Source: Antedon mediterranea
Taxonomy: Eukaryota > Echinodermata > Crinoidea > Comatulida > Antedonidae
Direction: 5' to 3'
Length of the DNA: 64,000 nucleotides
Assembly: GCF_964355755.1 (NCBI RefSeq)
Contig: NC_092677.1
Coordinates: 5,275,001-5,339,000, forward strand
This document shows positions 3,101 to 58,698 of the stretch, piece by piece (the first letter of the stretch is position 1; each line of letters opens with the position of its first letter). The translations under genes and the position numbers were made by a program. The notes below the pieces were generated by a model that was given only the letters and a program-made list of their open reading frames with translations, was not told where the DNA came from and made no database searches.

Positions 3101-3967
3101 TGATAACTGTTTGTCATTGTACTTTTTGTCTGTTATCTTGTAATTATTTTTTTATTAGTCGCAATAATTATTTAAATGATCAATGGTGTTATTTTGCAGA
3201 AAAACTAATTGTAATTATAAGTGACAATGAAGACATTTGGAATATTTTACCCCCTGTTACACCACCAGATGCTACTTTAGGAGAGCATACACAAGTAAGA
3301 TTTACTAGTGTTTACTTTTTAAGTACCTATTTTTATTTATAGTTTCTATGCTGTAAATGTCACTTTGTCATTATGGTAATTGTTTTAGATTATTGAATAT
3401 GCAAATGACCAAGTTTACATCAGCTGTTCATTGGAGGGCTGTCATCAAGTTTACGTTTCCTGCAGCAATGATAGATGTGAAACATTTGATGGCTGGGTTC
3501 AGGACGCATTTTTAGAGACAAGCCCAGAATGCCAGGTACCCTAAAACATGCCTGTTTTTAGGATTGTTTCATTCATTCATTACCATTTAAAGGGTAGATA
3601 ATATTTATATAATTTATTGTCATTTGCATTTTGTTCCATCTAGGGTGGTATTGTACGCTTACCAACAAAGTCAGGTAACTTCTACCAAATAGCAATGGCA
3701 AGTCATGGAAATGAAACAAACAAGGATCTTACACTTCACTTAAGCAAAGATGGTTGTAAAACTTGGTGTCAGTTTTACACACTAGGTGCAGTGAATGCAG
3801 AAGAATCTGACCTAGCTTACTACAGTGTAAAAGAAGGGAAAGAAGAAGCAGAGGGAATAGTGTGTGTTTACTGTTATAATTCCGAAACAGAGGGTTATAA
3901 TATTGGAATGCAGTTGATTTCTACCAAAGAAATTAACTCAAATTATAAGTGGCATTACTACATATAG
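125..3967 (+). CDS. G0: 3' part of an Ig + sialidase-like gene (5' end outside window)
   Basis: Spliced model, exons 125-451, 725-770, 1641-1790, 2258-2439, 2924-2998, 3200-3294, 3389-3535, 3644-3967, all with AG/GT borders and compatible phases. The first exon is one Ig domain (HWYKKT tryptophan strand, DAGEYMC F-strand). The rest is a sialidase-like propeller: an SYRHPAVIF segment matching the family's YRIP arginine motif, an RRG segment, Asp-box-like YDNGDNW and SKDGCKTW, an ECQ-GGIVRL segment, then a stop. It is the paralogue of the 3' halves of G1 and G2. Exon 3200-3294 replaces two exons of G1/G2 and lacks about 24 residues including one clear Asp-box. In the Ig exon the segment before LSVQ is longer than in G1/G2 and contains a polypyrimidine-AG string (about 403-419) that looks like exonised intron. 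Catalytic residues look degenerate. Earlier exons lie left of the window. Confidence 0.82.
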
Positions 3968-21982: not shown

Positions 21983-24900
21983 TTGAAGGTAAATCATCTG
22001 CAATTAATATATATTTACTTTTCAGTGTTTACAAATGGAAGAGGAAAAATCAGCCTAACGGTTTCAAATCTCGTGATATCTGATTCAGGAGAGTACAACT
22101 GCAACATAGAGGGCAATAGACAGCAAGATCAAGGTGTCAAAAATGTAACTGTTTATTGTGAGTTTTATAAATGATTCATTTTATTATTTTATTTTTTTTT
22201 AATCACTTCACTCTACCATGTCAGATAAGATTACAATTAAATAATGTATTAAATAATTGTTTAAGTTAAATCAGTTCCATCTTACTTGAATCTTCGGGCT
22301 CTTGATTAAGGCAAATGCCTTTTAAACGCCCTCCATTTCTTCTGTATTTATCTAGAATTGGTAGCAAAATTTATCTCCCATTGCTCTGTCTTTGTTTAGT
22401 TGATCCTTGAATGCATTTATGTTTTCTGCTTGTACTGTAGTGTGGTATAGATTGTTCCATGTGTTGACGATTCTACATGAAAAGGAGTGGCTTCTGATTT
22501 TCAGTCGGGCTCTTGGCTTTCTTAATTTGAATTGATGGCCCCTTGTTCTACTGTCCTCTCTAAAGTCAAAAAAGGTTTCGGCTTCAATATCATCCAAGCC
22601 CTTGATAATTTTAAACACTTGTATAATGTCCGCTCTCCTTCTTCTGTAATTCAGTGTAGGTAATCCAAGCTCTTTTAATCTCTGATCGTAAGATTTATCT
22701 CTTAACTTTTTGACAATTTTAGTGGCCCTACGCTGCACTCTTTCAAGCTTATCCAAATCACCTTTTAGGAGAGGGTACCATATACAGCTTGCGTATTCCA
22801 GATGAGGTCGAATTATACTTTTATAAAGGGGCAGGAACATATCCTTATCCATGTAAGCAAAAGATCGCCTTACCAATCCAATGAGTCTATTTGCTTTATT
22901 TACAGCTTCATTCGTATGTAGTGAAAATTTTAAAGACTGATCAAAAGTAACTCCAAGGTCCTTTTCAGTATTGGCATTTGGCAGATCCTCGTCACCTTCC
23001 TCTGTTGGCATAGTGAATTGCATTTGTGGATTTGAATTTCCATAATGTATTACTTTACATTTATTAATGTTAAATTTCAGCTGCCATCTTTTAGACCAAT
23101 CGGATAATGCCTTGAGATCATTTTGAACAGTATCATTTCTGTTTTCATACACAACATTAAACATCTTAGTGTCATCTGCAAACATCCATACTTTAGATTT
23201 AACTGCATCAGGTAGGTCGTTTATGAAAATGATAAATAATAAAGGGCCTAACACGCTGCCTTGAGGGACTCCGCTTTTAACCGTAGACCATTCAGAAAAT
23301 GCTGCGGCCACTCTAACTCTTTGTCTCCTCGCTGTCAAAAATTGATGTATCCATCTCAGTAGGTTTCCTTTTATTCCGTACGCTTCCAATTTTGTTATTA
23401 ATCTCTGGTGGGGGATAGAATCGAATGCCTTACTAAAATCCAAATATACAGCATCAAAGTTTTCTCCCGCATCCAGCAATTTCGTCCATTCTTCCATCAC
23501 CTCCAGCAATTGTGTGACGCAAGATCTACCTTTCCGAAACCCATGCTGTGCTTTTATAATAAGGTTTCTATCATTTAGAAACTGTATAATTTTGTCTCTC
23601 ACAATTGATTCCAAAAGTTTGCATACGACAGATGTCAAACTTACTGGCCTGTAGTTTCCAACCTCCGTCTTGTCCCCTTTCTTAAAAATTGGTACTACAT
23701 TTGCACATTTCCAGCACTCCGGTAACTTTCCAGTCGATAGTGATTTGTTGTATATTGACGTCAATGGAGTTGCAACAATTTCTTTAAGTTCCTTCAGTAC
23801 TCTTGGATGCACGTCATCTGGTCCAGCTGATTTATTTGAGTTCATCTGCTGAAGGCATGTAAGCACTTCCTCCTTTGTCACTTCAATTGACTCCAAATGG
23901 TCATCCACGTCAACTCTTGGTGTAACTTCTGGCAATGACTCGAGGTCTTCATTCGTGAATACACTTGTGAAAAATGCGTTGAAAATTTCCGCTTTATGCT
24001 GATTGTCATCAGCCATATTACCCTTTCCATCCTTCACCAATCCAATAGATTGAGTTGTTTTGGTTTTCTCTCTTACATATTTCCAGAAACTTTTAGGATT
24101 TGTTTTTACTTCATTGCAAATTTTCCGCTCCAGTGCAATCTTTGCTGCCCTTTTTTCACCTGTTACTATATTTCTTGCCTTTTTGTAACTGTCATAATCC
24201 TTCTGTTGTCGAGACCTTGTAAACTTTTTCCATGCATTTTGTTTCATTTTAATTTTCCTCTGAACGTCACCAGTCATCCAGATAGGTTTATTTTCTTTTT
24301 TTATGTTTGACTTGGGAATACAGATCTGAACAGCATTTCTTATTGATTTATTTAAAGCTTCACAGGCCTCTTCAACATTTGTATTTTCAAATTGGTAGTC
24401 CACCTCAGTAATCAGTTCTTTCATTTTAATATAGTCACCCTTGTTGAAATTTAGCTTGTATTCCATTTTCTCTTGTATTTTAGTTACACAGTCATATGAA
24501 AACAAGATTGTTACGTGGTCGCTTTTTCCTAATGGTGGACCTATCTCAATTTCACTTATTTTGGTTTCATCCATGGTGATTACTAAGTCGAGTATGTTAG
24601 GTGTTTGACCATCTCGAAATCGTGTTGGTTGCTGTATACACTGGCATAGAAAATTATCTCTAAGGCATTCTATAAACCGATTACTTTTATGTGTTTCATT
24701 TTTATTTGTACTCCAAGAAATCCAATCAATTTCAGGAAAATTGAAATCTCCTAACATGATGAAATCAGAAATACCATTTAGTTCACTTGCTTTGTTGATA
24801 GCAGATAGTAACGCTTGATTTTTTTCGTCAATACTGTTAGGACTTCTGTAAATACATCCGCATAATAGTTGTTGCCTTTTATTTATTTCAATTTTGATCC

Positions 24901-27900
24901 ATAGTGCTTCCACAAAATTTAAATTCAGTAATTCGTTACAGATACTGGCATTCAGCTCTTCCTTCGCAAAAATAACCACACCTCTACCACTTCTGCCAGA
25001 ATCAAATTTTGTGTATCCCTTGATGCTTAACTCAACTTCCAATATGTCTGTACAAGTTTTGTTATTTACTTCAGTTATTGCAACCACATCAGGTTTCCTT
25101 TGATTTATAATATCACGTAACTCACCTATTTTATTTCTCAGGGCATCTGCGTTTGTGTAAAGAAATTTCAACGACTTCTCATGAAAATCAACAATATCAT
25201 CGTTTCTTAAACTAGATTTCTTCTGCTTTAATCCTTCTATAAAAGTTTTAAATTTTTTCTTGTCCTCTGAACATTTTTTTTTTCTTATAAATTTTTGTTT
25301 CACTTTTCTTTCTAAGTTAAAATAATTTTCTTCAAAACAAAAAGATTCTATATTTGAAAATTCTTTATGATGATGAACTAGGGCCTCGAAAACGATCAAA
25401 CGCCGGTTCGCTATCCCGCTTCATAATTTTACCTCTTCTTATAACAAGATCAATCTCGCCGTTATCTTTCCTTGATCTTAGTTCCTGTCTTAACTCATAG
25501 TTCATTTGCCTCTCTTTTTTTGATCTATCAGGATTAATATATATGTTCTTTAGAAATGCGTGATCCGTGCTTCTAAGTTTTTTTGCATTTACCATCACTT
25601 CCCTTTTACTTTTCAGGCTATCCAGAGAAACTCTTGCCATTCTACACCCGTCTTCCGTGTATTTCCCAAGCCTGATCACTTCTGTTATTTTAACTCCCTC
25701 TATCTCTAGACACTCATTGAATAATTTCTCAATAGCAACCCTGTCTTCCTTCAGTCTCTGCTGAGAACTTTGGTTATCAGATTCAGGTAGATTTTCGATC
25801 ACAATATTTAATTTACGAGATTCTCTATCTCTATATTCTTCAATGCCTTCCTGAACACTCTCTTTAATTTTCCCATCCATTAGATCGTAGCTCTCTTTTA
25901 ATTCTATCAAATTATTTCTTGTGTCGACCTGGATTTTTTCAATGACTTCAATGTTTTTATTGTTTAGTGATGCTCTAAGCGCCTGATCTTTTTGCGTTTT
26001 TTCCACAATATTTAATCTCGCATTCATATTTTCCATGTGTTACGTTCATAATTTTTATCTATCTAGTGGATAAGTAGTGGCCACCATTCCTTCATCTATG
26101 TAAAATGAATTATAACAATGTAACTTAGCTCTGTTTACACTATCAAACTAGTTTGAAAAAAAAGTGTGATGTTCCAAAATATGGTAGTGATGCTCAAATA
26201 CGGTAGTGATATGACATCATCATGTCCATATATGGGCACATCACATTGTTTTGTAAAGTTTGATAGTGTAGACAAAGCTTAAGAGCAAATTTCATCAGCT
26301 TATATATTTTTTTAAAGGGATTGAGAGGAAAAATCATGAGTACTCAACAGAAGAAGGTATCAATAATTTTGAAATGAAGTGCAGATATGGACCAGCAGAT
26401 ATGCCATTAACAGGTTACAAGTGGAAGAAGATTAGGGAAGATGGCACAACAGAGATTGAGGATTGTTCTAAAGATTCTAGATTTGAAGTAACAAGTTACC
26501 AAAATAGCATTCTGTCTTTGAAGATAAAGAATGTTGTACTTGGTGATGCTGGGATGTATCAATGTGAAGTGAAGCCAGTTGATGGAGAACAAATACTGAA
26601 AGATACTACACATCTGACAGTGAAGGAAGGTAATTTTATAGAATTAAATGAGAACCTGTTTATTTTTTTTGTATGGTTTAGAAAATGTGTGTGATAGTAA
26701 AGTATATGGTACAGTTGAGAAAATGTTGATGTTTATAATGCCTGATAAAGTGAAGAGATTGCCTACTGTAGTATTTCCAGAAGTTTTTTCTTTAAAGGCC
26801 TATACATGGAATGTTTGTTTATCCTGTGTAATAATATACATATTGATAATCTATTATTTACTAGCAAAATATAATGTAAATTTTGTATTAAGCTGATGAA
26901 TATATTTTTGTTTAAAAACATTTTTTCCTGGAAATGTCTTTTATAGATGTTATCAAAATGGAGATTTCTGATGTTACTATCTATGAGGGTATCAATAGTG
27001 CTACATTGTTGTTAAACATAAAATATGTTGATGATTCTGTTAACATATCAAAAATCACATGGTATAACCTTGTTGAAGGTGAAGAAATTATGTTGCTGAC
27101 ATCAGCTGATTCACGCTATGAATGTGAATATTTGGATTCAAAGAACAGTGTATGTTTTAATATCAACAATGTTGAACCTGAAGATGAAGGAGAGTACATA
27201 TGTGAAGTAGAAGTTAAAGGAAGACAGAAAATATACAGATGTTCTGGAAGGCTAACGGTTAAAGGTAATGTATATGCTGCCAAATTAAAATACCTGGAAT
27301 ACCGGAGGTTGCAAATTCTTGAAATTTAATTGTGAATCCAAATCAAACATACTGTAAATTTGAAGATGTAAACAAAATTTTTCCACACACTTGCTTATAG
27401 CAATACTCATCAACAAATGCATTTCTTAGGTAGTTTTTTTGTTTGAATTCAAATATTTGGTTCAACAGAAATTTATAATTCCCAGCAATGTTTTAACTGT
27501 ATATATGAACTGTTTTATAAGTTGTTTTGTGACTGTGTAATTTGGTAGTAGTCACTCTCATACTGTAGGCCTACATTTAAAAGTAACACATCCAAATGCC
27601 AACTTTAAGTCAATGGCTACCAGATGTCTCTGTGAGACGGTTATCTGAACCAGTACCAGTATTCTGTCATTAATATCTACTGTTTTGAAACTGTGTTCAT
27701 ATTATGGTATCATTACATGAGTTGATTCTTTTTTTATATATAGAAACATTAGGGGCCTATACTCCCAAAAAAAGTAAGCAACTCTTACAAGTTTCAGTTA
27801 CTGTATAATAACAAAAATGTTTGTTTTTAATTAAATTTTGTTTGGACCATTTGTATTTGTAGGTCCTATAAAAATGGATATTCCTGATGTTATAACCAAT

Positions 27901-30900
27901 AAAGGTGTGGAATGTGATAAGTTGTTGTTGAAACTTACATATTTTGATAAGTCTGCTGAAATATCTAATATCACATGGTATAAGCAGGTTGAAGGTGAAG
28001 CAAAAGAGCTGACATCATGGCAGTCACCTAATCCAACGTCTGCACAGTCACCTGATCCAAGATCCGCACAGTTACCTGATCCAAGTTCCATACAATCACC
28101 TGATCCAACATCAGTACAGTCACCTGATCCAACATCATCACAGTCACCTTATTTAACATCACACTATGAAATGGGATTTGTGGGTCAGAGCAATGTATAT
28201 CTCAACATCAGGAATGTTGAATTTGAAGATGCAGGAAAGTACACATGTGAAGTGAAAATTGCAGGAAGACGGAAAACATACAGTTGTTCTGGAACTTTAA
28301 CAGTTCAAGGTATATCTAAAAACATTTCTTGGCTGAAATTAAATACTACACTACTAATACAACCTTGGAAGTAATATGTTTAGAAATGGCAAATATGGTG
28401 TTTTCTACAAAAGATTAACAATAATAGTGAAAACTAATTGTATATTCCTACTTTCAGATATGACACTAAATGACTGTCTTGTGACAGTTGAAGATAAAGC
28501 TGTTTTAACTTGCAGGTATCAAATTAAGAATCCAGTAAAAGCTATCAATTGGTATAAGAAGACTTTTGGTGAATACAAGATGATATATACTTCTGATGCA
28601 TTCAATCAAAAGATAGCAAATGTACCAGAAAGATATAAATCAACTTTTAAGGATAATGAAACAAGCTTAGAGTTTGAGCAAGTGTCGGTAACTGATGCTG
28701 GAGAGTACATGTGTAAACTTGAGACTGAGCACTGTACACCCATGACCAAATTAGCAAACTTATCTGTACAATGTAAGTAGATTTTGAAATATTTAATTTT
28801 CCATAAAAACTGATATATTAATGTTGACTGTATTGAGGGGCATTATAGGCTATTTTATACCTATAGACTGGCTATTATAATCAATCAAATAGTATGTAAA
28901 CCATGTGATTTAAATGTATTTATAGTACTTGTTAATAATAAATTTCTCTTGTGCCATTTGGCCATTTATTCACAATATTATACAATCAGTTCAATACATA
29001 AAATTAAGAAGATAGATATTTTTCAAAATGTTTGCTCCATTTACGTTTAATTGCTTCTTTTTGTAATATAATTGAAATGTTATTAATAATGTTGATTTCA
29101 AATATACCCAATTAAAATGACAAATCAGTTTGAAATTTAATGGCTTGACTTGTTATTTTAAAGTAAGTAAGTCAAGTTTGCTGACACCTATACATTAATA
29201 TGTTTTGTTTTGTAGTTGATGTGTTTACTGGAGTTGATGAACTAGGTAACACATACAGGTAATTGCCTTAATATTTATTACCATCATGATTCGAAAAATC
29301 AAGACATTTAAAACTGCATGATTGGTTTGTTGATATCCATTCAATTGTTAGGTTTTTTTTTGTTATACTTCACAAGACTTTTTATTTCCCATTTTCAATC
29401 TTTTTTTTCCCTTGTTTTATAGACACCCTGCGGTAGTCTTTTTGAATTCCCATTTACTTGTCTTTTGTGTGAAAAACAACTCGGATGTAATAATGAGAAG
29501 AGGAAAGATGAACAAGAAGAGTTTGATTGAATGGGAAGAATCAAGAGTTATTTTACGTGAAAAAGATACTAGGTATTAGATAATGAAAATATTAATCTAA
29601 TTTTGTATTGCATAAAAAGATTATTAAAGTTTATTTTAAAAATTCACATTAAAAATTGATTCTAACTCTTGAGTACAATGCTTTAATGAAATGTATCTGC
29701 TTAAAAAAAGGGGATACAATTACAAATCTCAGTATTATTTTAAAGCACTAATTAATTATAAAATTACCATGACTATTTTTGCACTGTTGCATTGTTTAAT
29801 ATTTACTGTACAGCTATCATAATCTAGTACCAATTGTAACAAATAATGGAAAGGTGATTCTAATGTGTGGTAAAAAAGATAATAACAACACAAAAGAGAG
29901 GAAGATGATAAGGCTGAAATCTGATGATAATGGAGAGAATTGGATTGAAGCATGTAATGTAGAAAACTCTCCAGGCGATATTCTAAGTAAGTTATTTTTA
30001 AATATTAAAGCTGAGATTAATGCACTTTTCAGGGTTGGATCCATGATTTATTTTGTTTTATATATGGTTTTATGTGTCTTTTATCGGTTTTTATGTGAAA
30101 TCTTTTGCCAACAACTTTTTATTTTTCAGGCCTAGGTCATGGTGTATGTTTAGATTCAGGGAAATTAGTTATTGCAGGAGTTGAAAATCTGGACAATAAC
30201 GAGAGTAAGAAAAGTAACACAATTAATAAACTTTTGTAAAATTATGGATGTGCTTAATATTAATATTCAAACAATAATAAAAAAATGATTTATCTTTTGT
30301 AAGTTCAACATACTGTAATTTAACATAACATCACTAATTGTATTGTGTATCATTAAAAATAAATATAACAGTGACATTGTTTTTTTTTGTGGAATTTGAA
30401 GAATTGTGTTTGTGTTGTTTTTGCAGGAAAACTATTTGTAATGACCAGTACTGATGATGGTGACACTTGGAGTATTGTATATGCTGAAGAGAACACTGGT
30501 ATGCATCTCATAAGTCTATATTTAAAGAAACATTGATTTTTCTTCCTTTCTAAACACCTTACAGATTTTATCTGACAAATGTTATTTTTAGAAAATTGTA
30601 AGAAAAGTATGAATTGTGCAAATAATTCAGCAAATCTTTTGTTTGTGTAGAAAATCTTTGGAGTACTGATAACCTTAACAGTTGGGAACTTCTAAATACT
30701 GTTAAACCACATGATGCTACCTTAGGAGAACACATACAAGTAAGATTAAAGAAGCTTTTCATAAAGAGACACTCTAGTAGTTTAATAGTATCTCTATGGT
30801 TTAGTTTGAGAATGGATTATTTTTGTCAAACACGAACTTTAGTTTACTGCTTTAAGTGCCATTTTGGCATAATATCTCATTTGTTCATTAGGTTGTTGAA

Positions 30901-31534
30901 TATGCAAATGACCAAGTTTACATCAGCTGTTCTTTGGAGAACAGTAATCAACGTTTGACTGCATACAGCAATGATGGATGTGAAACATTTGAAATTGATA
31001 ATGAATTATTGGAGGCAAATCCAGAATGTCAGGTAATCTACATGCAAGTCTTGTATATCTAATGTATTGTCAACTGTCTAGTCTCATCTATTGTGGTACT
31101 GAGTGTTGTCGTTGCTATGGTGTGAGAACGTATAATTGTTGTGTCCAATCAAATGACAAAGATCTACGTAACTGTAAAAAACTGCTTTGTCTCATATTAA
31201 TATAATTAAAATGTTATTTAAATTGTATTATATCAAGGGTGGTATTGTACGTTTACCAACCAAGACAGATGAGTATTACCAAATAGCAATGGCAAGTCAT
31301 GGAAATGAAACAAAGAAGGATCTTACACTTTACTTAAGTGAAGATGGTTGTAAAACCTGGTGTCAGTTTAACACACTAGGTGCAGTGAATGCAAGAGAAT
31401 CTGACCTAGCTTACTACAGTGTAAAAGAAGGGAAAAAAGAAGCAGAAGGAATAGTGTGTGTTTACAGTTATGGTTCAGATACAGAGGGGTATAAGATTGG
31501 AATGCAGTTAAATTCTAACAAAGAAATTATGTAA
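21983..31534 (+). CDS. G1 3' module: Ig domains fused to a sialidase-like propeller
   Basis: Exons 22026-22157 (back half of an Ig domain, DSGEYNC), 26318-26629 (Ig5), 26947-27264 (Ig6), optional 27744-27773, 27863-28309 (Ig7 with QSPDPTS repeats), 28458-28772 (Ig8), then propeller exons 29216-29258, 29423-29572, 29814-29986, 30130-30204, 30427-30498, 30651-30739, 30892-31032, 31238-31534. Phases agree throughout. The propeller shows TYRHPAVVF, IMRRG, YHNLVPIV, SDDNGENW, GHGVCLDSGKLV, STDDGDTW, TLGEHIQVVEY, SNDGCETF, ECQGGIVRL and SEDGCKTW, the order seen in vertebrate-type cytosolic/lysosomal sialidases. Compared with human NEU2, R21 and E218 positions look kept, while R237, R304 (to Lys) and Y334 (to Glu) look replaced, so catalysis is unlikely. 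An ATG at 21983 (MKVNHLQLIYIYFSVFTNG) could serve as a signal peptide if this is a separate gene. Confidence 0.82.
22352..25399 (-). CDS. LINE ORF2: APE-type endonuclease and reverse transcriptase
   Basis: 1015 codons with no internal stop. N-terminal endonuclease (about residues 85-300) shows FLYTNADALRNK, VVAITEV, CGCIYRSPNS, MLGDFNFPEIDW and SDHVTILFSY. The reverse transcriptase (about 480-800) shows NYRPVSLTSV, AQHGFRKGRS, YLDFSKAFDSIPH, GVPQGSVLGPLLF and the catalytic FADD. The C-terminal region (RVQRRATKIVKKLRDKSYD, LGLPTLNYRRRRAD) is typical of CR1/Jockey-superfamily elements. It overlaps the 3' end of ORF1 by 35 bases in a different frame. Its job is nicking and target-primed reverse transcription of the element's RNA. 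The reading frame looks intact, so the protein could be functional although this copy lacks its 5' end. Confidence 0.92.
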   Translation of the reverse strand: MIVFEALVHHHKEFSNIESFCFEENYFNLERKVKQKFIRKKKCSEDKKKFKTFIEGLKQKKSSLRNDDIVDFHEKSLKFLYTNADALRNKIGELRDIINQRKPDVVAITEVNNKTCTDILEVELSIKGYTKFDSGRSGRGVVIFAKEELNASICNELLNLNFVEALWIKIEINKRQQLLCGCIYRSPNSIDEKNQALLSAINKASELNGISDFIMLGDFNFPEIDWISWSTNKNETHKSNRFIECLRDNFLCQCIQQPTRFRDGQTPNILDLVITMDETKISEIEIGPPLGKSDHVTILFSYDCVTKIQEKMEYKLNFNKGDYIKMKELITEVDYQFENTNVEEACEALNKSIRNAVQICIPKSNIKKENKPIWMTGDVQRKIKMKQNAWKKFTRSRQQKDYDSYKKARNIVTGEKRAAKIALERKICNEVKTNPKSFWKYVREKTKTTQSIGLVKDGKGNMADDNQHKAEIFNAFFTSVFTNEDLESLPEVTPRVDVDDHLESIEVTKEEVLTCLQQMNSNKSAGPDDVHPRVLKELKEIVATPLTSIYNKSLSTGKLPECWKCANVVPIFKKGDKTEVGNYRPVSLTSVVCKLLESIVRDKIIQFLNDRNLIIKAQHGFRKGRSCVTQLLEVMEEWTKLLDAGENFDAVYLDFSKAFDSIPHQRLITKLEAYGIKGNLLRWIHQFLTARRQRVRVAAAFSEWSTVKSGVPQGSVLGPLLFIIFINDLPDAVKSKVWMFADDTKMFNVVYENRNDTVQNDLKALSDWSKRWQLKFNINKCKVIHYGNSNPQMQFTMPTEEGDEDLPNANTEKDLGVTFDQSLKFSLHTNEAVNKANRLIGLVRRSFAYMDKDMFLPLYKSIIRPHLEYASCIWYPLLKGDLDKLERVQRRATKIVKKLRDKSYDQRLKELGLPTLNYRRRRADIIQVFKIIKGLDDIEAETFFDFREDSRTRGHQFKLRKPRARLKIRSHSFSCRIVNTWNNLYHTTVQAENINAFKDQLNKDRAMGDKFCYQF
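25365..26036 (-). CDS. LINE ORF1: coiled-coil RNA-binding protein (5'-truncated)
   Basis: 223 residues ending just inside ORF2. The first about 90 residues are charged and heptad-like (coiled coil); then RKLNIVIENLPES begins an RRM-like segment, with VIRLGKY and ARVSLDSLKSKREVM and a basic C-terminal region (SKKERQMNYELRQELRSR), the usual plan of type II ORF1 proteins that bind LINE RNA. The apparent ATG-GAA start is the reverse complement of the TTCCAT target duplication, so the true start is missing. Confidence 0.8.
   Translation of the reverse strand: MENMNARLNIVEKTQKDQALRASLNNKNIEVIEKIQVDTRNNLIELKESYDLMDGKIKESVQEGIEEYRDRESRKLNIVIENLPESDNQSSQQRLKEDRVAIEKLFNECLEIEGVKITEVIRLGKYTEDGCRMARVSLDSLKSKREVMVNAKKLRSTDHAFLKNIYINPDRSKKERQMNYELRQELRSRKDNGEIDLVIRRGKIMKRDSEPAFDRFRGPSSSS
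26127..26279. mobile_element. MITE with ~20-bp inverted ends before Ig5 of G1
   Basis: Left end AGCTCTGTTTACACTATCAA and right end AAGTTTGATAGTGTAGACAA form imperfect terminal inverted repeats around about 110 bases. In G2 only the right end survives next to the Ig5 exon (about 53484-53548), so one copy is deleted internally. Confidence 0.55.
28021..28164 (+). repeat. 24-bp coding minisatellite in Ig7 of G1 (6 units, QSPDPTSV-type)
   Basis: Six tandem 24-base units (QSPNPTSA, QSPDPRSA, QLPDPSSI, QSPDPTSV, QSPDPTSS, QSPYLTSH) sit between the C' strand (VEGEAKELTSW) and the E-F region (NVYLNIRNV) of Ig7, lengthening a loop. G2 has nine units at the same site, which accounts exactly for its 72-base-longer exon. 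Confidence 0.93.
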
Positions 31535-32736: not shown

Positions 32737-35700
32737 TTAGTCATAAAACTGTTTACAGTAATAAGGTTCTTCAACCTTTCCTTTTTGTGACGTACTACTA
32801 ATTACAGCATCATTAGGTTCTGCATAAACTTCCAAATAACTTGCAGAAATAAGACCTTCGTACTCGGGATTTCGGCGTTCCATTTTAATTTCTCCTCTTT
32901 CCTAAAGAAGCAAAACAAATATTGGTATTAACCTCATTGAGTGTGAGCGAATATTTATTACTGTATTTAAGTTAGATTAAAAATCAATTATTGTTTGTCT
33001 TGGATGACGGTCCCATAAATGGTGTCACAGTGTGTAAATTTTAAATAGTTTTACCTCTACTTTGTCAATGCATTCTGTTTTCGACATAGGCTTGACATAT
33101 CCCTCGTCATCTAGGCATTCTGTTTTCGACATAGGCTTGACATATCCCTCGTCATCTAGGCATTCTGTTTTCGACATAGGCTTGACATATCCCTCGTCAT
33201 CTAGGCATTCTGTTTTCGACGTAGGCTTGACATATCCCTCGTCATCTAGGCATTCCGTTTTCGACATAGGCTTGACATATCCCTCGTCATCTAGGCATTC
33301 TGTTTTCGACATAGGCTTGACATATCCCTCGTCATCTAGGCATTCCGTTTTCGACATAGGCTTGACATATCCCTCGTCATCTAGGCATTCTGTTTTTGAC
33401 ATAGGCTTGACATATCCCTCGTCATCTAGGCATTCTGTTTCCGACATAGGCTTGACATATCCTTCGTCATCTAAGCATTCTCTTTTCGACATAGGCTTGA
33501 CATATCCCTCGCCATCTATGTTTACATCTAAGCTTGTCGAAATTTGCAAACATTGATTCTTAGGATTTTTATGTTCCATTTCTGTTACTTCTCTCTGTAA
33601 AACAGCCAATATATAATTTAGGTTGTGAGTTTTCATCATACAATTTTGATGTTAAATCTTGTCACTTATTGACACATTTTCGGTATGCTCTTCTGGAAAT
33701 AGATTGTAGCTAAACTAAATTTAAACATGACTGATCATTTTTAAAGTCAGACATAGTTAATGAATCAGAACTTAAATATAAAACTATTATCTTTAACTTG
33801 TTATGTCACAGTTTTGTATCTACAGAAATGTTTGTTTTATTACCGACTGGTAACCAATTGTTACTTTAGTAGGTGACGTAGGCTTGACATATCCCTCGTT
33901 ATCTGTGTCGACATCAGAGGTTGCTGACACTTGGTTCTTAAGATTTTGATACTCCAATTGTATTACTTCTCTCTGTAAAACATACAATAGATTATTTTGG
34001 GAAGTTTTCGTGATAAGTTCAAAAAACATTTATTTATTCAACAATGGCATTATACAGTATAATATAATTATAGGTGTGTACATAAATGAAAACATAGTAA
34101 TAAGCCATCATTTGGGGTCTTCTCTAGAAGAAAACAAGTGTCTTGTCTCGAGAAAGACCCCAGAAACAATACACATACATTTAATGTATCACTTATCTAT
34201 CTGTTTAAAAATCTTGAGGTACCGGTACGCTCTGCTGGAAATATAACTAAAAGGTAGGATTTGAGTATTAAACTATGAATTGGTAAGACACAGTCTCTAA
34301 ACTACAGAAGTGTTTTCTACTACCAAAACTTATAAACAATTGTTACTTTATTAGAAGTTGGCTTGACATATCCTTCGTCATCATAGCTAGTCGAAATTTG
34401 CAGACTACTAATTACAGCATCATTAGGTTCGTCATAAACTTCCAAATAACTTGCAGAAATAAGACCTTCGTACTCGGGACTTCGGCGTTCCATTTTAATT
34501 TCTCCTCTTTCCTAAAAGAGCAATACAAATATATTTATTATCATCATTGAGTGTGAGAAAATAATTTGTAAATTTTTCTGTTGAGTGAAAGTCTGTGGCT
34601 TTTTAGAAAATGTAATATATAATATTTCGTACGCCGGTGGCAAATAGCTGAGAGTGGAATGTACCCCAGATGTTCTTTTCGCTAAACCACAGGTACTAAC
34701 AGTAAAAAAATTTAAAGAGCCATTAAAATTACACCTCTTTTCTGAGGCATATGAAATTAATGAATAAAAGAAATCGGATTCTCAATCAGCTACAGTATGT
34801 GGTTGCTAGGAGCACTTGTAGTGGATATGTGCGCTATATAAATTATTATTGTTATCGTTATTATTACAGTCGATCGAATCAACTTCGCCATACTTTTTCT
34901 ATGTCTGATTTTTATGGTATAAAGTAGCAATTACAATGTAAAGTAAGAGGTACTTTAATTGTCAAATATGTACCGCACTGATACTTCCAACACGCTTGGT
35001 GGTCCTCGCGCTTCGTTGCTATGTTTTTGTCTGTCATCACTAGTCCTTTGTACTTAAAATGTTGCAATTCTATTTCTATTACTTCTCGACTTCCGATGGT
35101 GAACTGGTGTCGCAATGTAAAATGTATATTTTAAATTACCTCAACTTTTGCGATACATTCTGCTTCAGACATAGGCTTGGCATATCCCTCGTCATCTATA
35201 TTTACATCAGAGTTTGTCGAAATTTGCAGACATTGGTTCTGGGGAATTGGAAGTGCCATTCGTGTTACTTCTCTCTGTAAAACATGCAATAAATCATTAA
35301 TTATGTTTTGTATATTTTGTGTTGAATTTTGACAGCCAACTGGTAACTTGTCAATGAATAATAATTATGTTAAACTCCATTCTGTATCATTTTGAATCAG
35401 TTCGCATTTGTCGTAATGGGAAAATAACTGCTTTTGAGTGTCAAGTCCGACCATAAAGTTGAAATTTAGTTGAGTTTTAGTATTAAACAATATTTACCTG
35501 TATTCTTGTTCTAGGCCTTGCTTTATTTGTCGTCCTGGTATCACCGGCGTCCACGGTATGCTCTTTGTTTATCTCTTTGTAATCTCCAACATTTGAAGGA
35601 AATTTCAATGTTTGATATTGAGGATTTTGATAATCAAAATGGATTTCTTTTATTTGTCTTACCTTAAAGAAACAATACTGATAACAGTAGATATAATATC

Positions 35701-38700
35701 TATTAAAATTACATTTTAGGCCTACCTTTCTTTTTTAGTTAACCACTTTCGTTTTATATTGTATTAATATATTAATAAGTTTTAGTAAAAGTCAATATTT
35801 TATATTGATTTAAAAGTACTTACAAAAATATAACGGGTTATTAGAAACGTCGGGACGGAGCAAATAATTGAAGTTAGAGCTACAGTTATGACCACAGTTA
35901 TCAAAGCATAACCTAAAAATGCAATGTAAATGTTGAACAGAACATAGGCCTAGTACTTAGTATAATTAATTATGGTTATAATATATTGGAAATCTCACTT
36001 TAGTAACAGAGGCACACTTTGTTGATAAAGGTGCGTTCAAATGATAAGTTAAATGAATGAAAATAAATGCAAACATGTGTATAATACAGCAGGCATACAA
36101 AAATAAAATTAATAACTTAAAATGAATAAAATGAATCAAAAAATGAAACTGTAATAACCTAATCCAAAATGTATACAAAAAAACCAATAAAGAACATTGA
36201 ATGCAGATAATTTGAAATATTTTTTCTTTTTAGTCAACTTTACCTGTATTGCAGTTCTCTAGTGATGTTGTTTCATTAAATATTTCGTTCTGTACATAAC
36301 ATGTACAATTTGATTGATATATCTCATCATTGATTTCTATAGTTTCTGAATAGTTTTCTTTCTTAGTCACTTCTCCATTTTGCAATATCAATAGGCCTAC
36401 TGATGATGTTTTTGGGTATCCCTCTACTGTAAATGTTGCAAGTCCATCTTCAGTTTTTAATGTTACAATGATATCTAAACAAAACAGAAGCTAAAAACGT
36501 AACTATTAAACTACTATTAAAACACTGCTTGGTTTAAACTAAAACACTCACTAACTGGTTTAATACTCTTTAACAATGTTGAATCAATGTAGGTATAACA
36601 CATAATGTAGGCCTAGCATAATAATCAATTACGCAACAGCAGTTGAACATATTTTGAACTTTCTGTCATTTTTTCTAAAAAAAATAATTATTAACTGAAA
36701 AACTTTTAAAACATGTTTACATTTTTTCTACCTTAACTTGTTCTACTGTTAAGTTTTTTGTTTTACATTTTGTTACGTCGATTAAGCTTTTTTTTAGCGG
36801 TTGATTGTTACGTTTACATACAATAATATGCTCAACTGTATTTATTTTCAATACTGGTCTAAAGTGGTGAATGATTAACAAGTTGAAATGTAATCATTCA
36901 GACACTAACACATATTACTTGGTAAATACAGTATGGTGACATACCTTTCAAATTTTCTGTAGGCCCATCTGTAGGCATATCTGCTTTGGGCCTACAGTTC
37001 TCAAGTGATGTAGAGGCATTCAGTTTTTCATTCTCTGCATAACATGTAAGATTTGATGAACATATCTCATCATTAATTTCTATAGTTGCTGTATTTTCTC
37101 CTTTCTTAACCACTTCTCCATCTTGTAATATCAATACTGATGATGGCTTGGGATGGCCCTCTGCTGTACAGGTTGCAAAACAATCTTCATGATTGAATGT
37201 TGCGATCATATCTAATGAGGGAAGATAAAGCTTAAAGCTTAAGAAAATGAATATTCTTTTGGAATCGATATAGGCCTAACAGCAAGAAAATTAAGCTTGT
37301 TATTACAGATTCAGTTCATCACACCTTTATTTAGTTATGAATATATCTGGGCCCTTACAGAAAAGGACCCACCACAGGACTCTAAATGAAAGAAAAAGAA
37401 ACGAAAGAAAGAAAACTTTTAATAAACAAAGCAAATTCAAAAAGTTATTTTTAATTATGGGACCCTTTCTAGAAGTACAGTACAATATATGGTAAATGAT
37501 GAACAAGAAAACTATTTATAAACAAAGCAAATTCTAAAGGTAAATGAAACATTCAGTAGGTGGGGGAGTAGGGGCAGAAAAAATAATAAGGATATTCAAA
37601 ATTTAAGTATTCAGAATATATATAGAAAGTTTATTTTTACAAGAAAACAAAACAAAGGAAAACAAAACAGTGATATTTTTTCTAATTCAACTTATCAAAA
37701 TTACTACCGTATATTACATAAAAACTATATTTTTGATCGGCTCATATCATTAATAGTAGGCTATCATTAGATACAAACAAATGTACCACAACATATATTT
37801 TCTACGTACAAAATATTTCCAAATGTTTTCCGGCACTAATTTTAGCATCAAGTCCCTTAAAAGGATCACTTTCTGCTTTACATGTGTATATACCACTGTC
37901 TTCCATAGTGGCTGCTTCAATCTTAAGGGCATTGCCGTTGGTATTCATCTTCTGTCCATCTTTATACCAAGTAATGTAAGGAATAGGATCACCATCAGGT
38001 TTACTACAAGTAAATGTGACTGTTTCACCTTCATAAGCAGTGCTTGCTGAGGCATTAAGACGTGGTTGATCCAAGTCTGAGAAAAACAACGAAAATAATG
38101 GTATAAAAATTTACAAATGTAAGAATGAAAGACATTTATAGAGTAGACCTAGTATTAATGAGGCATTAAGACGTGGCTGATCCAAGTCTGAGAAAAAGTA
38201 TAAAACAAATTAGACAGCAGACAAATAAAGATGTAGTCAACACAAATTACAACAAAAAGAAGTGTATATAGTACTATGCCTATTGATACTCAAGAAAATG
38301 TAACTCTAATTCCGGAGTTATACTATTGGCGTGACGTGGGAACATTTACAATTATAGGCCTACTATTTAGTAAAAAAATTATTAAGGATGTCGGTTTATG
38401 ATAGCTTTTTTTTCAGGCTACATCATGATTATCTGGTATACTCACAATTTACAGTTAGCATAGATGGACTTAATAATGTAATCATTCCAGTTGCTGTTTG
38501 TATCTGGCATCTAAATATTCTTTGAGAATCATATCTCAAGGGCTGTAAGATCACCAGACTAGCTTCACCAGGAGCAGTGTGTAACAACCGGAAACGTCCA
38601 TTTTCCATCTTTTTATCATTCACAATTCCTGGGTAGATCGTTACTTCATCTTCATTTAGTTCATCCCATTGTAGTGAAGTAGGAGTAGAAGTAAATTGTG

Positions 38701-39089
38701 AATAATCACAAGTTATCACCACTTCAGCATCTCCTTCTTTGGCTGTCTGGTTAAAGGTCGTTTGACCATGTGCTTTAAAATATCAAGCATATCCTATTGT
38801 TTATATTTAACCAATGATAATTCAAAATTTAACTGTCTCAACCTAAAAATATATATATTCTACGAAGTCATGCAAACAAGTAAAAGAATAAAACTGCTCT
38901 CAATCAGCATCAGCTGTTTTTAGTTTTACGCGTTCGTAATCTGGTTATTGAAAAATAGTTTAATATTAACTGACTGACTAAAAAGTGTATGGTCGTTTAG
39001 TTGTTGATTATCATATTTAATTATATTTTAATTATCTTACCGACTAAAGATTGTATATATACAATAAATAAAATTCGCTTCAAACCCAT
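32737..39089 (-). CDS. M2: four-Ig receptor with ITAM and 10-copy YVKP tail
   Basis: Right to left: 39041-39089 (signal peptide), 38446-38772 (Ig1), 37810-38076 (Ig2), 36945-37211 (Ig3 and linker), 36244-36474 (Ig4; first canonical Cys replaced by Phe), 35824-35912 (membrane segment ALITVVITVALTSIICSV), 35498-35662 (ITAM-like exon), 35140-35274 (EGYAKP exon), 34320-34511 (chimeric exon with stop), 33844-33972 (EGYVKP exon), 33055-33594 (repeat exon), 32737-32901 (last exon, stop after QFYD). Tail exons are phase 0 at both ends, so any subset keeps frame. The repeated GYVKP fits the YxxP docking class bound by CRK-type SH2 domains, and VYDEP in the chimeric exon fits the NCK class. The ectodomain matches M1 and the first Ig domains of G. 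Likely a signalling surface receptor; ligand unknown. Confidence 0.82.
33055..33594 (-). other. M2 repeat exon: 10 tandem phosphotyrosine-motif units
   Basis: 180 codons, phase 0 at both ends. After REVTEMEHKNPKNQCLQIST the exon consists of ten 15-residue units of the form DDEGYVKPMSKTECL and ends with DKVE. Tyrosine, the acidic run before it and proline at +3 are kept in every unit. Confidence 0.9.
33071..33520 (-). repeat. 45-bp coding minisatellite, 10 units (M2)
   Basis: Ten head-to-tail 45-base units with only scattered substitutions (for example M to T in one unit, K to E in another). The M3 paralogue at 60232-60501 has six units. Confidence 0.97.
34116..34163. repeat. Short imperfect hairpin in M2 intron
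   Basis: GGGGTCTTCTC and GAGAAAGACCCC, with inner ACAAG/CTTGT, form a roughly 20-bp stem with bulges. The same hairpin is kept in M3 at about 61092-61139. Confidence 0.4.
34320..34511 (-). other. Chimeric, stop-containing tail exon of M2
   Basis: The first half (ERGEIKMERRSPEYEGL..SYLEVYDEPNDAVISS) is a near copy of the start of the last M exon (32737-32901). The second half (LQISTS then DDEGYVKPTS) matches the repeat-type tail exons. The frame ends at TAG 34320-34322 after VYKFW. If used it would be an alternative terminal exon that removes the YVKP array. M3 has the same exon at 61292-61483, same length. Confidence 0.6.
34621..34866 (+). mobile_element. Decayed LINE 3' end in M2 intron
   Basis: 34693-34767 translates as VKKFKEPLKLHLFSEAYE, the C-terminal signature of L2/Rex/CR1-type ORF2 proteins, followed by a stop, a TGCGCTATATAAATT segment and an ATT-rich tail. 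The same relic is in M3 (about 61593-61850), so it predates that duplication. Confidence 0.65.
35498..35662 (-). other. ITAM-like tail exon of M2
   Basis: 55 codons encoding FDYQNPQYQTL, eight residues, then DYKEI: YxxL-x8-YxxI matches ITAM spacing. YQN also fits the GRB2-type YxN motif. M3 has the same exon (62694-62858). The M1 exon (8072-8191) keeps the second tyrosine (VYSKI) but has QGQVK in place of the first YxxL. Confidence 0.7.
38157..38191 (-). pseudogene. Relic of a duplicated Ig2 exon start in M2
   Basis: Same truncated exon copy as in M1 (9787-9821): acceptor plus about ten codons of DLDQPRLNAS, then unrelated sequence. Confidence 0.6.
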
Positions 39090-53127: not shown

Positions 53128-56100
53128 TTGAAGGTAAATCATCTGCAATTAATATATATTTACTTTTCAGTGTTTACAAATGGAAGAGGAAAAATCAGCC
53201 TAACGGTTTCAAATCTTGTGATATCTGATTCAGGAGAGTACAACTGCAACATAGAGGGCAATAGACAGCAAGGTCAAAGTGTCAACAATGTAACTGTTTA
53301 TTGTGAGTTTTATAAATGATTTATTTTATTATTTTTTTAATCACCATGTCAGATAAGATTACAATTAAATAATGTATTAAATAATTGTTTAAATCAGTTC
53401 CATGTGTTAAGTTCATAATTTTTATCTATCTAGTGGATAAGTAGTGGCCACCATTCCTTCATCTATGTAAAATGAATTATAACATCATGTCCATATATGG
53501 GCACATCACATTATTTTGTAAAGTTTGATAGTGTAGACAAAAATTAAGAGCAAATTTCATCAGCTTATATATTTTTTGAAGGGATTGAGAGGAAAAATCA
53601 CAAGTACTCATCAGAAGAAGGTATCAATAATTTTGAAATGAAGTGCAGATATGGACCAGCAGATATGCCATTAACAGGTTACAAGTGGAAGAAGATTAGG
53701 GAAGATGGCACAACAGAGATTGAGGATTGTTCTAAAGATTCTAGATTTGAAGTAACAAGTTACCAAAATAGCATTCTGTCTTTGAAGATAAAGAATGTTA
53801 TACTTGGTGATGCTGGGATGTATCAATGTGAAGTGAAGCCAGTTGATGGAGAACAAATACTGAAAGATACTACACATCTGACAGTGAAGGAAGGTAATTT
53901 TATAGAATTAAATGAGAACCTGTTTATTTTTTTTGTATGGTTTAGAAAATGTGTGTGATAGTAAAGTATATGGTACAGTTGAGAAAATGTTGATGTTTAT
54001 AATGCCTGATAAAGTGAAGAGATTGCCTACTGTAGTATTTCCAGAAGTTTTTTCTTTAAAAGGCCTATAACATGGAATGTTTGTTTATCCTGTGTAATAA
54101 TATACATATTGATAATCTATTATTTACTAGCAAAGTATAATGTAAATTTTGTATTAAGCTGATGAATATATTTTTGTTTAAAAACATTTTTTCCTGGAAA
54201 TGTCTTTTATAGATGTTATCAAAATGGAGATTTCTGATGTTACTATCTATGAGGGTTTCAAGAGTGCTACATTGTTGTTAAACATAAAATATGTTGATGA
54301 TTCTGCTAACATATCAAAAATCACATGGTATAAGCTTGTTGAAGGTGAAGAAATTATGTTGCTGACATCAGCTGATTCACGCTATGAATGTGAATATTTG
54401 GATTCAAAGAACAGTGTATGTTTTAATATCAACAATGTTGAACCTGAAGATGAAGGAGAGTACATATGTGAAGTAGAAGTTAAAGGAAGACAGAAAATAT
54501 ACAGATGTTCTGGAAGGCTAACGGTTAAAGGTAATGTATATGCTGCCAAATTAAAATACCTGGAATACCCGAGGTTGCAAATTCTTGAAATTTAATTGTG
54601 AATCCAAATCAAACATACTGTAAATTTGAAGATGTAAACAACATTTTCCCACACACTTGCTTATAGCAATACTCATCAACAAAAGCATTTCTTAGGTAGT
54701 TTTTTTGTTGTTTGAATTCCAATATTTGGTTCATTCTGTCATTAATATCTACTGTTTTGAAACTGTGTTCATATTATGGTATCATTACATGAGTTGATTC
54801 TTTTTTTATATATAGAAACATTAGGGGCCTACTCCCAAAAAAAGTAAGCAACTCTTACAAGTTGCAGTTACTGTATAATGGTGACAAAAATGTTTGTTTT
54901 TAATTAAATTTTGTTTGAACCATTTGTATTTGTAGGTCCTATAAAAATGGATATTCCTGATGTTATAACCAATAAAGGTGTGGAATGTGATAAGTTGTTG
55001 TTGAAACTTACATATTTTGATAAGTCTGCTGAAATATCTAATATCACATGGTATAAGCAGGTTGAAGGTGAAGCAAAAGAGCTGACATCATGGCAGTCAC
55101 CTAATCCAACATCCGTACAGTCACCTGATCCAACATCCATACAGTCACCTGATCCAACATCTGTACAGTCACCTGATCCAACATCCGTACAGTCACCTGA
55201 TCCAACATCCGTACAGTCAGCTGATCCAACATCCGTACAGTCACCTGATCCAACATCCGTACAGTCACCTGATCCAACATCATCACAGTCACCTGAGCCA
55301 ACATCACGCTATGAAATGGGATTTGTGGGTCAGAGCAATGTATATCTCAACATCAGCAATGTTGAATTTGAAGATGCAGGAGAGTACATATGTGAAGTGA
55401 AAATTGCAGGAAGACAGAAAACATACAGTTGTTCTGGAACTTTAACAGTTCAAGGTAATATATCTAAAAACATTTCTTTGCTGGAATTAAATACTACACT
55501 ACTAATACAACCTTGGAAGTAATATGTTTAGAAATGGCAAATGTGGTGATTTCTACAAGATTAACAATAATAGTGAAAAATAATTGTATATTCCTACTTT
55601 CAGATATGACACTAAATGACTGTCTTGTGACAGTTGAAGATAAAGCTGTTTTAACTTGCAGGTATCAAATTAAGAATCCAGTAAAAGCTATCAATTGGTA
55701 TAAGAAGACTTTTGGTGAATACAAGATGATATTTACTTCTGATACATTCAATCAGAAGATAGCAAATGTACCAGAAAGATATAAAGCAACTTTTAAGGAT
55801 AATGAAACAAGCTTAGAGTTTGAGCAAGTGTCGGTAACTGATGCTGGAGAGTACATGTGTAAACTTGAGATTGAGCGCTGTACACCAATGACCAAATTAG
55901 CAAACTTGTCTGTACAATGTAAGTAGATTTTAAAATATTTAATTTTCCATAAAAACTGATATTAATGTTGACTGTATTGATTGTATTATTTTATACCTAT
56001 AGACTGGCTATTATAATCAATCAAATAGTATGTAAACCATGTGATTTAAATGTATTTATAGTACTTGTTAATAATAAATTTCTCTTGTGCCATTTGGCCA

Positions 56101-58698
56101 TTTATTCACAATATTATACAATCAGTTCAATACATAAAATTAAGAGGATACATATTTTTCAAAATGTTTGCTCCATTTACGTTTAGTTGCTTCTTTTTGT
56201 AATATAATTGAATTATTATTAATAACGTTTATTTCAAATATACCCAATTAAAAGGATAAATCAGTTTGAAATTTAATGGTTTGACTTGTTATTTTAAAGT
56301 AAGTAAGTAAGTAAAGTTTGGTGACACCTATACATTAATATGTTTTGTTTTTGTAGTTGATGTGTTTACTGGAGTTGATGAACTAGGTAACACATACAGG
56401 TAATTGCCTTAATATCTATTACCACCATGGTTCTAAAAATCAAAACATTTAAAACTGCATGACTGGTTTGTTGATATTCATTCATAATTGTAAATTGTTT
56501 TTTTTCTCGTTATACTTTACAAGACTTTTTTTATTTCCCATTTTCAATCTTTTTTTTTTTCTTGGTTTATACTTTATAGACACCCTGCGGTAGTCTTTCT
56601 GAATTCCAATTTACTTGTCTTTTGTGTGAAAAACAACTCGGATGTAATAATTAGAAGAGGAAAGATGAACAAGAAGAGTTTGATTGAATGGGAAGAATCA
56701 AGAGTTATTTTACATAAAAAAGATACTAGGTATTAGATAATGAAAATATTAATCTAATTTTGTATTGCATAAAAAGATTATTAAAGTTTATTTTAAAAAT
56801 TCACATTAAAAATTGATTCTAACTCTTGAGTACAATGCTTTAATGAAATGTATCTGCTTAAAAAAAGGGGATACAATTACAAATCTCAGTATTATTTTAA
56901 AGCACTAATTAATTATAAAATTACCATGACCATTACCTATCTTTGCACTGCTGCATTGTTTAATATTTACTGTACAGCTATCATAATCTAGTACCAATTG
57001 TAACAAATAATGGAAAGGTGATTCTAATGTGTGGTAAAAAAGATAATAACAACACAAAAGAGAGGAAGATGATAAGGCTGAAATCTGATGATAATGGAGA
57101 GAATTGGATTGAAGCATGTAATGTAGAAAACTCTCCAGGCGATATTCTAAGTAAGTTATTTTCAAATATTAAAGCTGAGATTAATGCACTTTTCAGGGTT
57201 GGATCCATGATTTATTTTGTTTTATATATGGTTTTATGTGTCTTTTATCGGTTTTTATGTGAAATCTTTTGCCAACAACTTTTTATTTTTCAGGCCTAGG
57301 TCATGGTGTATGTTTAGATTCAGGGAAATTAGTTATTGCAGGAGTTGAAAATCTGGACAATAACGAGAGTAAGAAAAGTAACACAATTAATAAACTTTTG
57401 TAAAATTATGGATGTGCTTAATATTAATATTCAAACAATAATAAAAAAATGATTTATCTTTTGTAAGTTCAACATACTGTAATTTAACATAACATCACTA
57501 ATTGTATTGTGTATCATTAAAAATAAATATAACAGTGACATTGTTTTTTTTGTGGAATTTGAAGAATTGTGTTTGTGTTGTTTTTGCAGGAAAACTATTT
57601 GTAATGACCAGTACTGATGATGGTGACACTTGGAGTATTGTATATGCTGAAGAGAACACTGGTATGCATCTCATAAGTCTATATTTAAAGAAACATTGAT
57701 TTTTCTTCCTTTCTAAACACCTTACAGATTTTATCTGACAAATGTTATTTTTAGAAAATTGTAAGAAAAGTATGAATTCTGCAAATAATTCAGCAAATCT
57801 TTTGTTTGTGTAGAAAATCTTTGGAGTACTGATAACCTTAACAGTTGGGAACTTCTAAATACTGTTAAACCACAAGATGCTACCTTAGGAGAACACATAC
57901 AAGTAAGATTAAAGAAGCTTTTCATTAAGAGACACTCTAGTAGTTTAATAGTATCTCTATGGTTTAGTTTGAGAATGGATTATTTTTGTCAAACACGAAC
58001 TTTAGTTTACTGCTTTAAGTGCCATTTTGGCATAATATCTCATTTGTTCATTAGGTTGTTGAATATGCAAATGACCAAGTTTACATCAGCTGTTCTTTGG
58101 AGAACAGTAATCAACGTTTGACTGCATACAGCAATGATGGATGTGAAACATTTGAAATTGATAATGAATTATTGGAGGCAAATCCAGAATGTCAGGTAAT
58201 CTACATGCAAGTCTTGTATATCTAATGTATTGTCAACTGTCTAGTCTCATCTATTGTGGTACTGAGTGTTGTCGTTGCTATGGTGTGAGAACTTATAATT
58301 GTTGTGTCCAATCAAATGACAAAGATCTACGTAACTGTAAAAAACTGCTTTGTCTCATATTAATATAATTAAAATGTTATATAAATTGTATTATTACCTA
58401 GGGTGGTATTGTACGTTTACCAATCAAGACAGATGAGTTCTACCAAATAGCAATGGCAAGTCATGGAAATGAAACAGATAAGGATCTTACACTTTACTTA
58501 AGTGAAGATGGTTGTAAAACCTGGTCTCAGTTTAATACACTAGGTGCAGCGAATGCAGAAGAATCTGACCTAGCTTATTACAGTGTAAAAGAAGGGAAAG
58601 AAGAAGCAAAAGGAATAGTGTGTGTTTACAGTTATGGTTCAGAAACAAAGGGTTATAAGATTGGAATTCAGTTAAATTCTAACAAAGAAATTATGTAA
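53128..58698 (+). CDS. G2 3' module: Ig domains fused to a sialidase-like propeller
   Basis: Exons 53171-53302 (half Ig), 53582-53893 (Ig5), 54213-54530 (Ig6), 54936-55454 (Ig7 with nine QSPDPTS-type units), 55604-55918 (Ig8), then 56357-56399, 56580-56729, 56978-57150, 57294-57368, 57590-57661, 57814-57902, 58055-58195, 58402-58698. Architecture and exon sizes match G1 except the Ig7 repeat. The propeller retains RHPAVVF, DDNGENW, STDDGDTW, TLGEHIQVVEY, ECQ-GGIVRL and SEDGCKTW. As in G1 the residue corresponding to the NEU2 nucleophile tyrosine is Glu (AEESDLAYY) and the third-arginine site is Lys. Propeller exons 56978-58195 are almost identical to G1, but the last exon differs at about 17 bases. 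The small exon seen in G1 at 27744 has a 2-bp deletion here (54816-54843), so it must be skipped. Confidence 0.82.
55094..55309 (+). repeat. 24-bp coding minisatellite in Ig7 of G2 (9 units)
   Basis: Nine tandem 24-base units, mostly QSPDPTSV, in the same Ig7 loop as the six-unit array of G1. The internal units are more homogeneous than in G1, as expected of recent unequal exchange or slippage. Confidence 0.95.

Follow-up and report, generated by a model that had tools for sequence, protein, structure and literature searches.

Several proteins with many YxxP motifs have been described in enough detail to serve as points of comparison for the locus reported here. According to one account, the cytoplasmic tails of DCBLD1 and DCBLD2, likewise transmembrane receptors with a multi-YxxP tail, hold 8 and 7 YxxP motifs that are highly conserved across vertebrates and are needed for binding of the CRKL SH2 domain, which is driven by Fyn and Abl phosphorylation; the Abl SH2 domain also binds DCBLD2 through YxxP (PMC6029619). 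The substrate domain of p130Cas (BCAR1) is described as a disordered region with 15 YxxP motifs that are substrates of Src-family kinases and serve effectors such as Crk and Nck, and YxxP spacing is reported there as absolutely conserved among the 11 placental mammals in the alignment (PMC3983058), whereas the motif number in the crinoid Antedon mediterranea differs by exact, near-identical units. A further paper terms pYXXP a canonical CRK-SH2 motif and also gives a narrower CRK form, pYXDP/L (PMC4841779). For the EPIYA-C segment of Helicobacter CagA, a bacterial example, there is a description of how the copy number of a phosphosite can matter (PMC4623810).

The locus studied here lies in a 64,000-nucleotide stretch of the A. 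mediterranea genome (the window), and it departs from each of these systems in some respect. DCBLD1 and DCBLD2 have a discoidin/CUB/LCCL ectodomain whereas that of the Antedon receptor is of the Ig type, and to our knowledge their YxxP motifs do not form a near-identical tandem array. p130Cas is a scaffold that has an SH3 domain and is not known to have a transmembrane segment, whereas the receptor encoded by M2, the gene with nine modelled exons, has a transmembrane exon and no SH3 match in Pfam at E ≤ 1. CagA likewise shows tandem copy-number variation of a phosphotyrosine site, but it is a bacterial effector with another motif and another reader, and its variation is between strains rather than between paralogues; no homology is claimed. 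The phosphotyrosine repeats of Chlamydia TARP also vary in number. The literature searched, with subscription papers mostly outside its reach, contained nothing on point about variable tandem phosphotyrosine repeats in animal receptors. At E ≤ 0.001 the M2 protein matched only Ig families in Pfam, with no CUB, LCCL, or discoidin ectodomain. The Antedon receptor looks as if it is built like a multi-YxxP docking receptor, and it belongs to neither the DCBLD nor the Cas family.

Gene models of the receptor family

The three genes, M1, M2, and M3, are tandem paralogues of a single-pass Ig-superfamily receptor of A. mediterranea, all on the minus strand. M2 comprises nine modelled exons running from 38772 to 32737 and joined in one frame with AG/GT sites: four Ig-type exons (Ig1, 38446 to 38772; Ig2, 37810 to 38076; an Ig3-type exon, 36945 to 37211; and a fourth, placed by homology to Ig3, 36244 to 36474), a transmembrane exon (35824 to 35912) followed by basic residues, a juxtamembrane exon (35498 to 35662) in which DYQNPQYQTL provides one YxxP and one NPxY-like site, and then exons A (35140 to 35274), D (33055 to 33594), and E (32737 to 32901), the last with YEGL, YLEV, YAEP, and the stop. 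Pfam returned Ig_3 at an E value of 3.1e-18 (two stretches), Ig_2, and others, with the best Ig_3/I-set stretch on the second Ig exon. For the signal-peptide exon, a candidate ATG lies at 38910, upstream of Ig1, with no clean splice into Ig1 worked out.

The tail of M3 repeats that of M2 27.2 kb away, and sequence comparison places its juxtamembrane exon at 62694 to 62858 and its last exon E at 59899 to 60063; exon A (62336 to 62470) matches M2 exon A at all 135 bp. Only the start of the Ig part of M3 lies within the window. M1 follows the same plan with a tail made of juxtamembrane and E exons only: a transmembrane exon (8295 to 8392), a juxtamembrane exon (8072 to 8191), and a last exon (7428 to 7574) that carries IYEEP and has no unit exon before it. 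This part of M1 equals a database protein of A. mediterranea, P0013 (133 amino acids, uncharacterized, without an array), which matches the spliced M1 model exactly through three splice junctions, so that the modelled junctions are independently supported; the match also agrees with A. mediterranea, or a species with the same sequence at this place, as the source of the window. P0013 begins inside the Ig3 exon, which indicates that annotation here is incomplete and makes absence from it weak evidence.

The 45-bp array and the tail

Tandem Repeats Finder placed 45-bp arrays at 33070 to 33518 in M2 (10.0 copies, 96% matches, score 835) and at 60231 to 60498 in M3 (6.0 copies, 96% matches). Read along the minus strand, both encode in-frame DDEGYVKPMSKTECL units, this being the consensus unit of the M2 array. 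Exon D, which bears the array, is stop-free in both genes and measures 540 bases (180 codons) in M2 and 360 bases in M3 (60216 to 60575); both of its ends are in phase 0, its acceptor ends in ttttacag (...tgttttacag in M2), and its donor is gtaaaa. Since 45 is a multiple of 3, long open frames are expected on both strands of the array and as such are no evidence; what supports the minus strand is the surrounding gene.

The array that the sequence-only reading had pointed to is therefore real and correctly placed, with 10 units in M2 and 6 in M3, and a tblastn search of exons A, B, C, and D against the window recovered no unit exon in M1, whose tail is shorter and intact; that reading was nonetheless partly misargued. 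M1 lacks the units but retains one YxxP (YEEP) in its last exon. The acidic residues before the tyrosine, said to be invariant, are not, given that unit 1 of M2 reads DGEGY (D to G at -3) and that the residue at -1 is Gly. Tyr and Pro(+3) are indeed the same in 16 of 16 units, but they are not singled out, as 9 of the 15 positions are invariant in amino acid. YxxP totals are 1 in M1, 2 in the paralogue P0014, 9 in M3, and 13 in M2, rising to 16 in M2 and 12 in M3 with exons C and B spliced in. The gene model, the Pfam Ig families, the transmembrane exon, and these counts support the receptor tail with many YxxP motifs that the sequence-only reading described, on a receptor of the single-pass Ig type.

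The cytoplasmic tail is tyrosine-rich and probably disordered, as far as predictions go. A structural model of P0014, built from a 9-sequence alignment, has a mean pLDDT of 53, mostly strands in residues 11 to 130 (74 to 93 per 10-residue block), a helix at 216 to 245 in the place of the transmembrane exon, and a tail (246 to 380) below 50. The third Ig region is also mostly below 50 and most other rows of the alignment have unrelated tails, so the low tail values merely hint at disorder. On a charge-hydropathy basis the array and the whole tail fall on the disordered side and exon A on the ordered side.

Relatives in protein databases

A full-length search against 7583 candidates returned 12 proteins, of which the top eight come from crinoids (A. 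mediterranea and Anneissia japonica). The tail region within the full-length query (residues 358 to 720) matched 0 of 4434 candidates at E ≤ 1, and a search with a tail-only alignment of M2, M3, and M1 had two matches at E ≤ 10 among 519 candidates, each from A. mediterranea. No array-bearing protein was found in the full-length, tail-region, or tail-only searches, for which the best 8 of the 12 full-length matches were examined; the other four, P0009 to P0012 (other animals or unnamed), cover 6 to 14% of the query and were left out. P0013 and P0014 (380 amino acids) fall under the length limit of the full-length-query searches, so absence from these is partly a length effect. P0014, also from A. 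mediterranea and uncharacterized, has the tail plan in common with the receptors: its only unit-like exon (DGDDGYVKPT...CIAKVE) leads into an E-like exon that carries FYEEP, and it has no array. Among the best 60 of 175 matches of P0014 to solved structures, the proteins are generic Ig-domain proteins.

A proposed multisite docking strip

Starting from directly established features (the gene anatomy, the array, the kinship of the exons, the sufficiency of one four-unit event, and the recurrence of the motif in diverged exons), we tentatively favor the reading that the YxxP tail is a multisite pYxxP docking strip of the CRK type that works like the tails of DCBLD1 and DCBLD2, to which we would give slightly less than an even chance. 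A Src- or Abl-type kinase would phosphorylate the tyrosines of the YxxP motifs, to which an SH2 adaptor of the CRK/CRKL type or a different reader of pYxxP, for instance Abl, would bind; CRK, Src, and Abl all occur in echinoderms. The sites would have multiplied first by duplication of the small symmetric phase-0 exons (A, B, C, and D) and later, within D alone, through the tandem growth of a 45-bp minisatellite inside the exon, yielding the 13 YxxP motifs of M2 (16 with C and B) and the 9 of M3 (12 with C and B) against the 1 of M1, and the number of sites would change signal strength. A flexible membrane tail with spaced YxxP motifs fits such a strip. The sequence-only reading had named CRK-type adaptors as the partners, which agrees with pYXXP as a canonical CRK-SH2 motif, but YVKP does not fit the narrower pYXDP/L given in the same paper, having no D at +2 (PMC4841779). 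For NCK, which that reading also listed for a pull-down, there is nothing specific in support.

That the receptor family tunes its intracellular signaling by gaining and losing exact YxxP units, with valency varying among paralogues and probably among individuals as a host-side counterpart of CagA EPIYA-C repeat variation, is a claim that we consider unlikely, if worth stating. Should site number change output, the locus would offer a natural series of 1, 2, 9, and 13 YxxP motifs on one receptor framework, in which the mapping from valency to signaling is testable with existing gene copies and valency can be tuned by a minisatellite. Should the array be neutral, it would be a clean case of a linear-motif array expanding without selection. 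The locus would be of use chiefly as a ready-made dose series, provided that exon D is borne out by transcripts.

Origin of the array and evidence for selection

A serious rival of the docking reading holds that a disordered tail tolerates the array as a coding minisatellite whose expansion is a mutational by-product, that one or two YxxP motifs elsewhere carry any function, and that 6 versus 10 units is a matter of indifference; this we judge possible, though clearly short of probable. Exon A corresponds to exon D with one unit (DDEGYAKPMSEAEC), the two having 69% amino acid identity and, with D collapsed, a pN of 0.157 and a pS of 0.333. The sister exon A and P0014 have one unit each, and it follows that the array grew inside exon D; a symmetric phase-0 exon would thus have been duplicated first, with the array then expanding within one copy. 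In both M2 and M3, units 1 to 6 carry the same marker changes (R in unit 1, GAA in unit 2, and ACG in units 4 and 6), and once a single 180-bp stretch is cut out of M2 exon D, the remaining 360 bases align to M3 with 6 mismatches. Judging from this alignment, a single four-unit gain or loss suffices for 10 versus 6, and the sequence gives no direction. The observation that copy number differs by exact units between paralogues accordingly stands, but one event accounts for it, as the rival would have it.

A neighboring plus-strand Ig gene contains a 24-bp coding array (QSPDPTSV), with 5.9 copies at 28021 to 28161 and 8.8 at 55094 to 55305, inside an Ig-like exon (Pfam V-set, first copy scanned). 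These arrays are without YxxP, yet their copy number differs between the same two duplicated blocks. Coding minisatellites are simply active in this duplicated block, and because a linked YxxP-free minisatellite varies too, copy-number change alone needs no signaling explanation. Signaling valency that evolves by slippage, as the sequence-only reading envisaged, is possible, but the 24-bp array weighs against reading it from copy number and favors the neutral alternative.

Across the 16 units there are five amino acid changes (D to G, V to I, M to T, K to E, and T to R), with a sixth, L/I, at the 3' edge of the array. The chance that five (six) such changes miss two given codons, Tyr and Pro, is 0.49 (0.42), and with units that are 96% alike, their invariance is weak evidence of selection. 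The argument from invariance to selection on Tyr and Pro is weak, and both the recent homogenization of the units and the placing of the changes at other codons are what a neutral array would display.

Substitutions between the tails of M2 and M3 point the same way. Without the units, their exons have a pN of 0.0192 and a pS of 0.0194 (13.5 and 3.5 changes), and units 1 to 6 have 4 nonsynonymous and 2 synonymous changes. Divergence is 21/1164 in exons and 20/944 in the four alignable introns (P = 0.64), a count in which D is aligned by one 180-bp event (6 mismatches) and the intron between A and C is dropped. The substitutions in the M2/M3 tail show no visible recent purifying selection, with pN about equal to pS and exons diverging as introns do. 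An exon-versus-intron constraint with a P value of 7.6e-10 was rejected, as it drew on the A-C intron, part of which cannot be aligned, and on an alignment of exon D whose gap was in the wrong place (15 mismatches). Apart from the array, M2 and M3 differ by 0 indels in 1164 aligned exon bases and by 5 in 944 bases of the four introns (Poisson P = 0.002), and the frame retained in the exon copies of both genes counts against a neutral array.

M1 and M2 have a pN of 0.027 and a pS of 0.082 over Ig1 to Ig3, 0.024 and 0.018 for Ig2 alone, and 0.252 and 0.431 for the last exon. By these rates, the ectodomain is constrained overall.

Motif recurrence outside the array also argues against neutrality. 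In a hand alignment of five diverged exons (A, B, C, D, and that of P0014), all five agree at G, Y, K, and P of GYxKP, and a YxxP at one place is kept in 5 of 6 aligned copies of the E-like exons, M3 exon C (YEEF) having lost it. This recurrence in diverged sister exons and P0014 favors the motif with somewhat better support than unit invariance does, and it is the older signal. In a column test over the five sister exons (hand alignment, with B and C truncated at their donor sites and only columns of at least 4 residues used), the GYxKP core was invariant in 4 of 8 columns and the rest in 7 of 29, a difference that was not significant (P = 0.16). When the array is counted as a single unit, 4 YxxP motifs are present in the M2 tail against 0.60 expected in shuffles (P = 0.0014), an excess that also tells against the neutral array, although the count includes two related exons and does not represent four independent events; without exon D it has 3 against 0.58 expected (P = 0.013). 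YxxP number was not above chance in the same kind of shuffles for the M2 juxtamembrane and E exons together (2; P = 0.075), for M1 (1; P = 0.20), or for P0014 (2; P = 0.064).

Exons B and C and the use of exon D

Between A and D in M2 lie exon C (34323 to 34511; YEGL, YLEV, YDEP, and YVKP) and exon B (33823 to 33972; one unit-like DNEGYVKPTS), and sequence comparison places their M3 counterparts at 61295 to 61483 and 60803 to 60952, with M3 exon C having lost one YxxP (YEEF) and gained one (YEGP) relative to M2. Each reaches an in-frame stop before D, and in M2 and M3 alike the stop is preceded by an in-frame phase-0 donor, AAA|gtaaca. C and B may therefore serve either as alternative last exons or as internal ones, with alternative C termini or a 16-YxxP M2 tail as possible outcomes.

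It is improbable that exon D is unused, with M2 and M3 ending at C or B or lacking expression. The stops of C and B would allow it, and the searches found no array protein whereas the M1 tail is in the database as P0013; against this, the acceptor and donor of D resemble those of its neighbors, its frame is intact in both copies, B and C hold in-frame donors before their stops, and the incomplete annotation makes the absence weak. Quite improbable as a separate account is that the tail is phosphorylated but its pY-V-K-P is read by a non-CRK protein (Abl or, among other possible readers of pYxxP, RasGAP, PLC-gamma, Vav, or a phosphatase), or that the tail is inhibitory. A non-CRK reader would agree with the Abl-SH2 binding of DCBLD2 through YxxP (PMC6029619), with the missing D at +2 of YVKP, and with the YEGL, YLEV, and NPxY-like sites of the tail, and is opposed by the naming of pYXXP as a canonical CRK motif (PMC4841779). 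These last two alternatives overlap with the docking and neutral readings.

Exons B and C together differ between M2 and M3 at 12 of 339 positions and the intron between them at 1 of 342 (P = 0.0016; 33823 to 34511 and 60803 to 61483). This excess in exons over the intron could reflect patchy gene conversion or diversifying change in the exons.

Neighboring sequences

Plus-strand stretches at 3389 to 3934, 31253 to 31528, and 58417 to 58692 match the C-terminal part of P0006 at 56%, 87%, and 87%, respectively. P0006 is listed with PF13088, which we take to be sialidase-type, and a Pfam scan of 31253 to 31531 gave no match. These matches suggest that Ig and sialidase-like genes are interleaved with the receptors. 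The A-C intron of M3 contains a stretch (61977 to 62336) that is not alignable with M2 and holds most of a 119-amino-acid open frame that matched nothing in Pfam at E ≤ 0.01; the stretch is possibly a mobile-element remnant. A LINE-like element occupies 22352 to 26039 on the minus strand, with an endonuclease and reverse transcriptase open reading frame (Pfam RVT_1, 1.1e-36) and an adjoining open reading frame of 224 amino acids.
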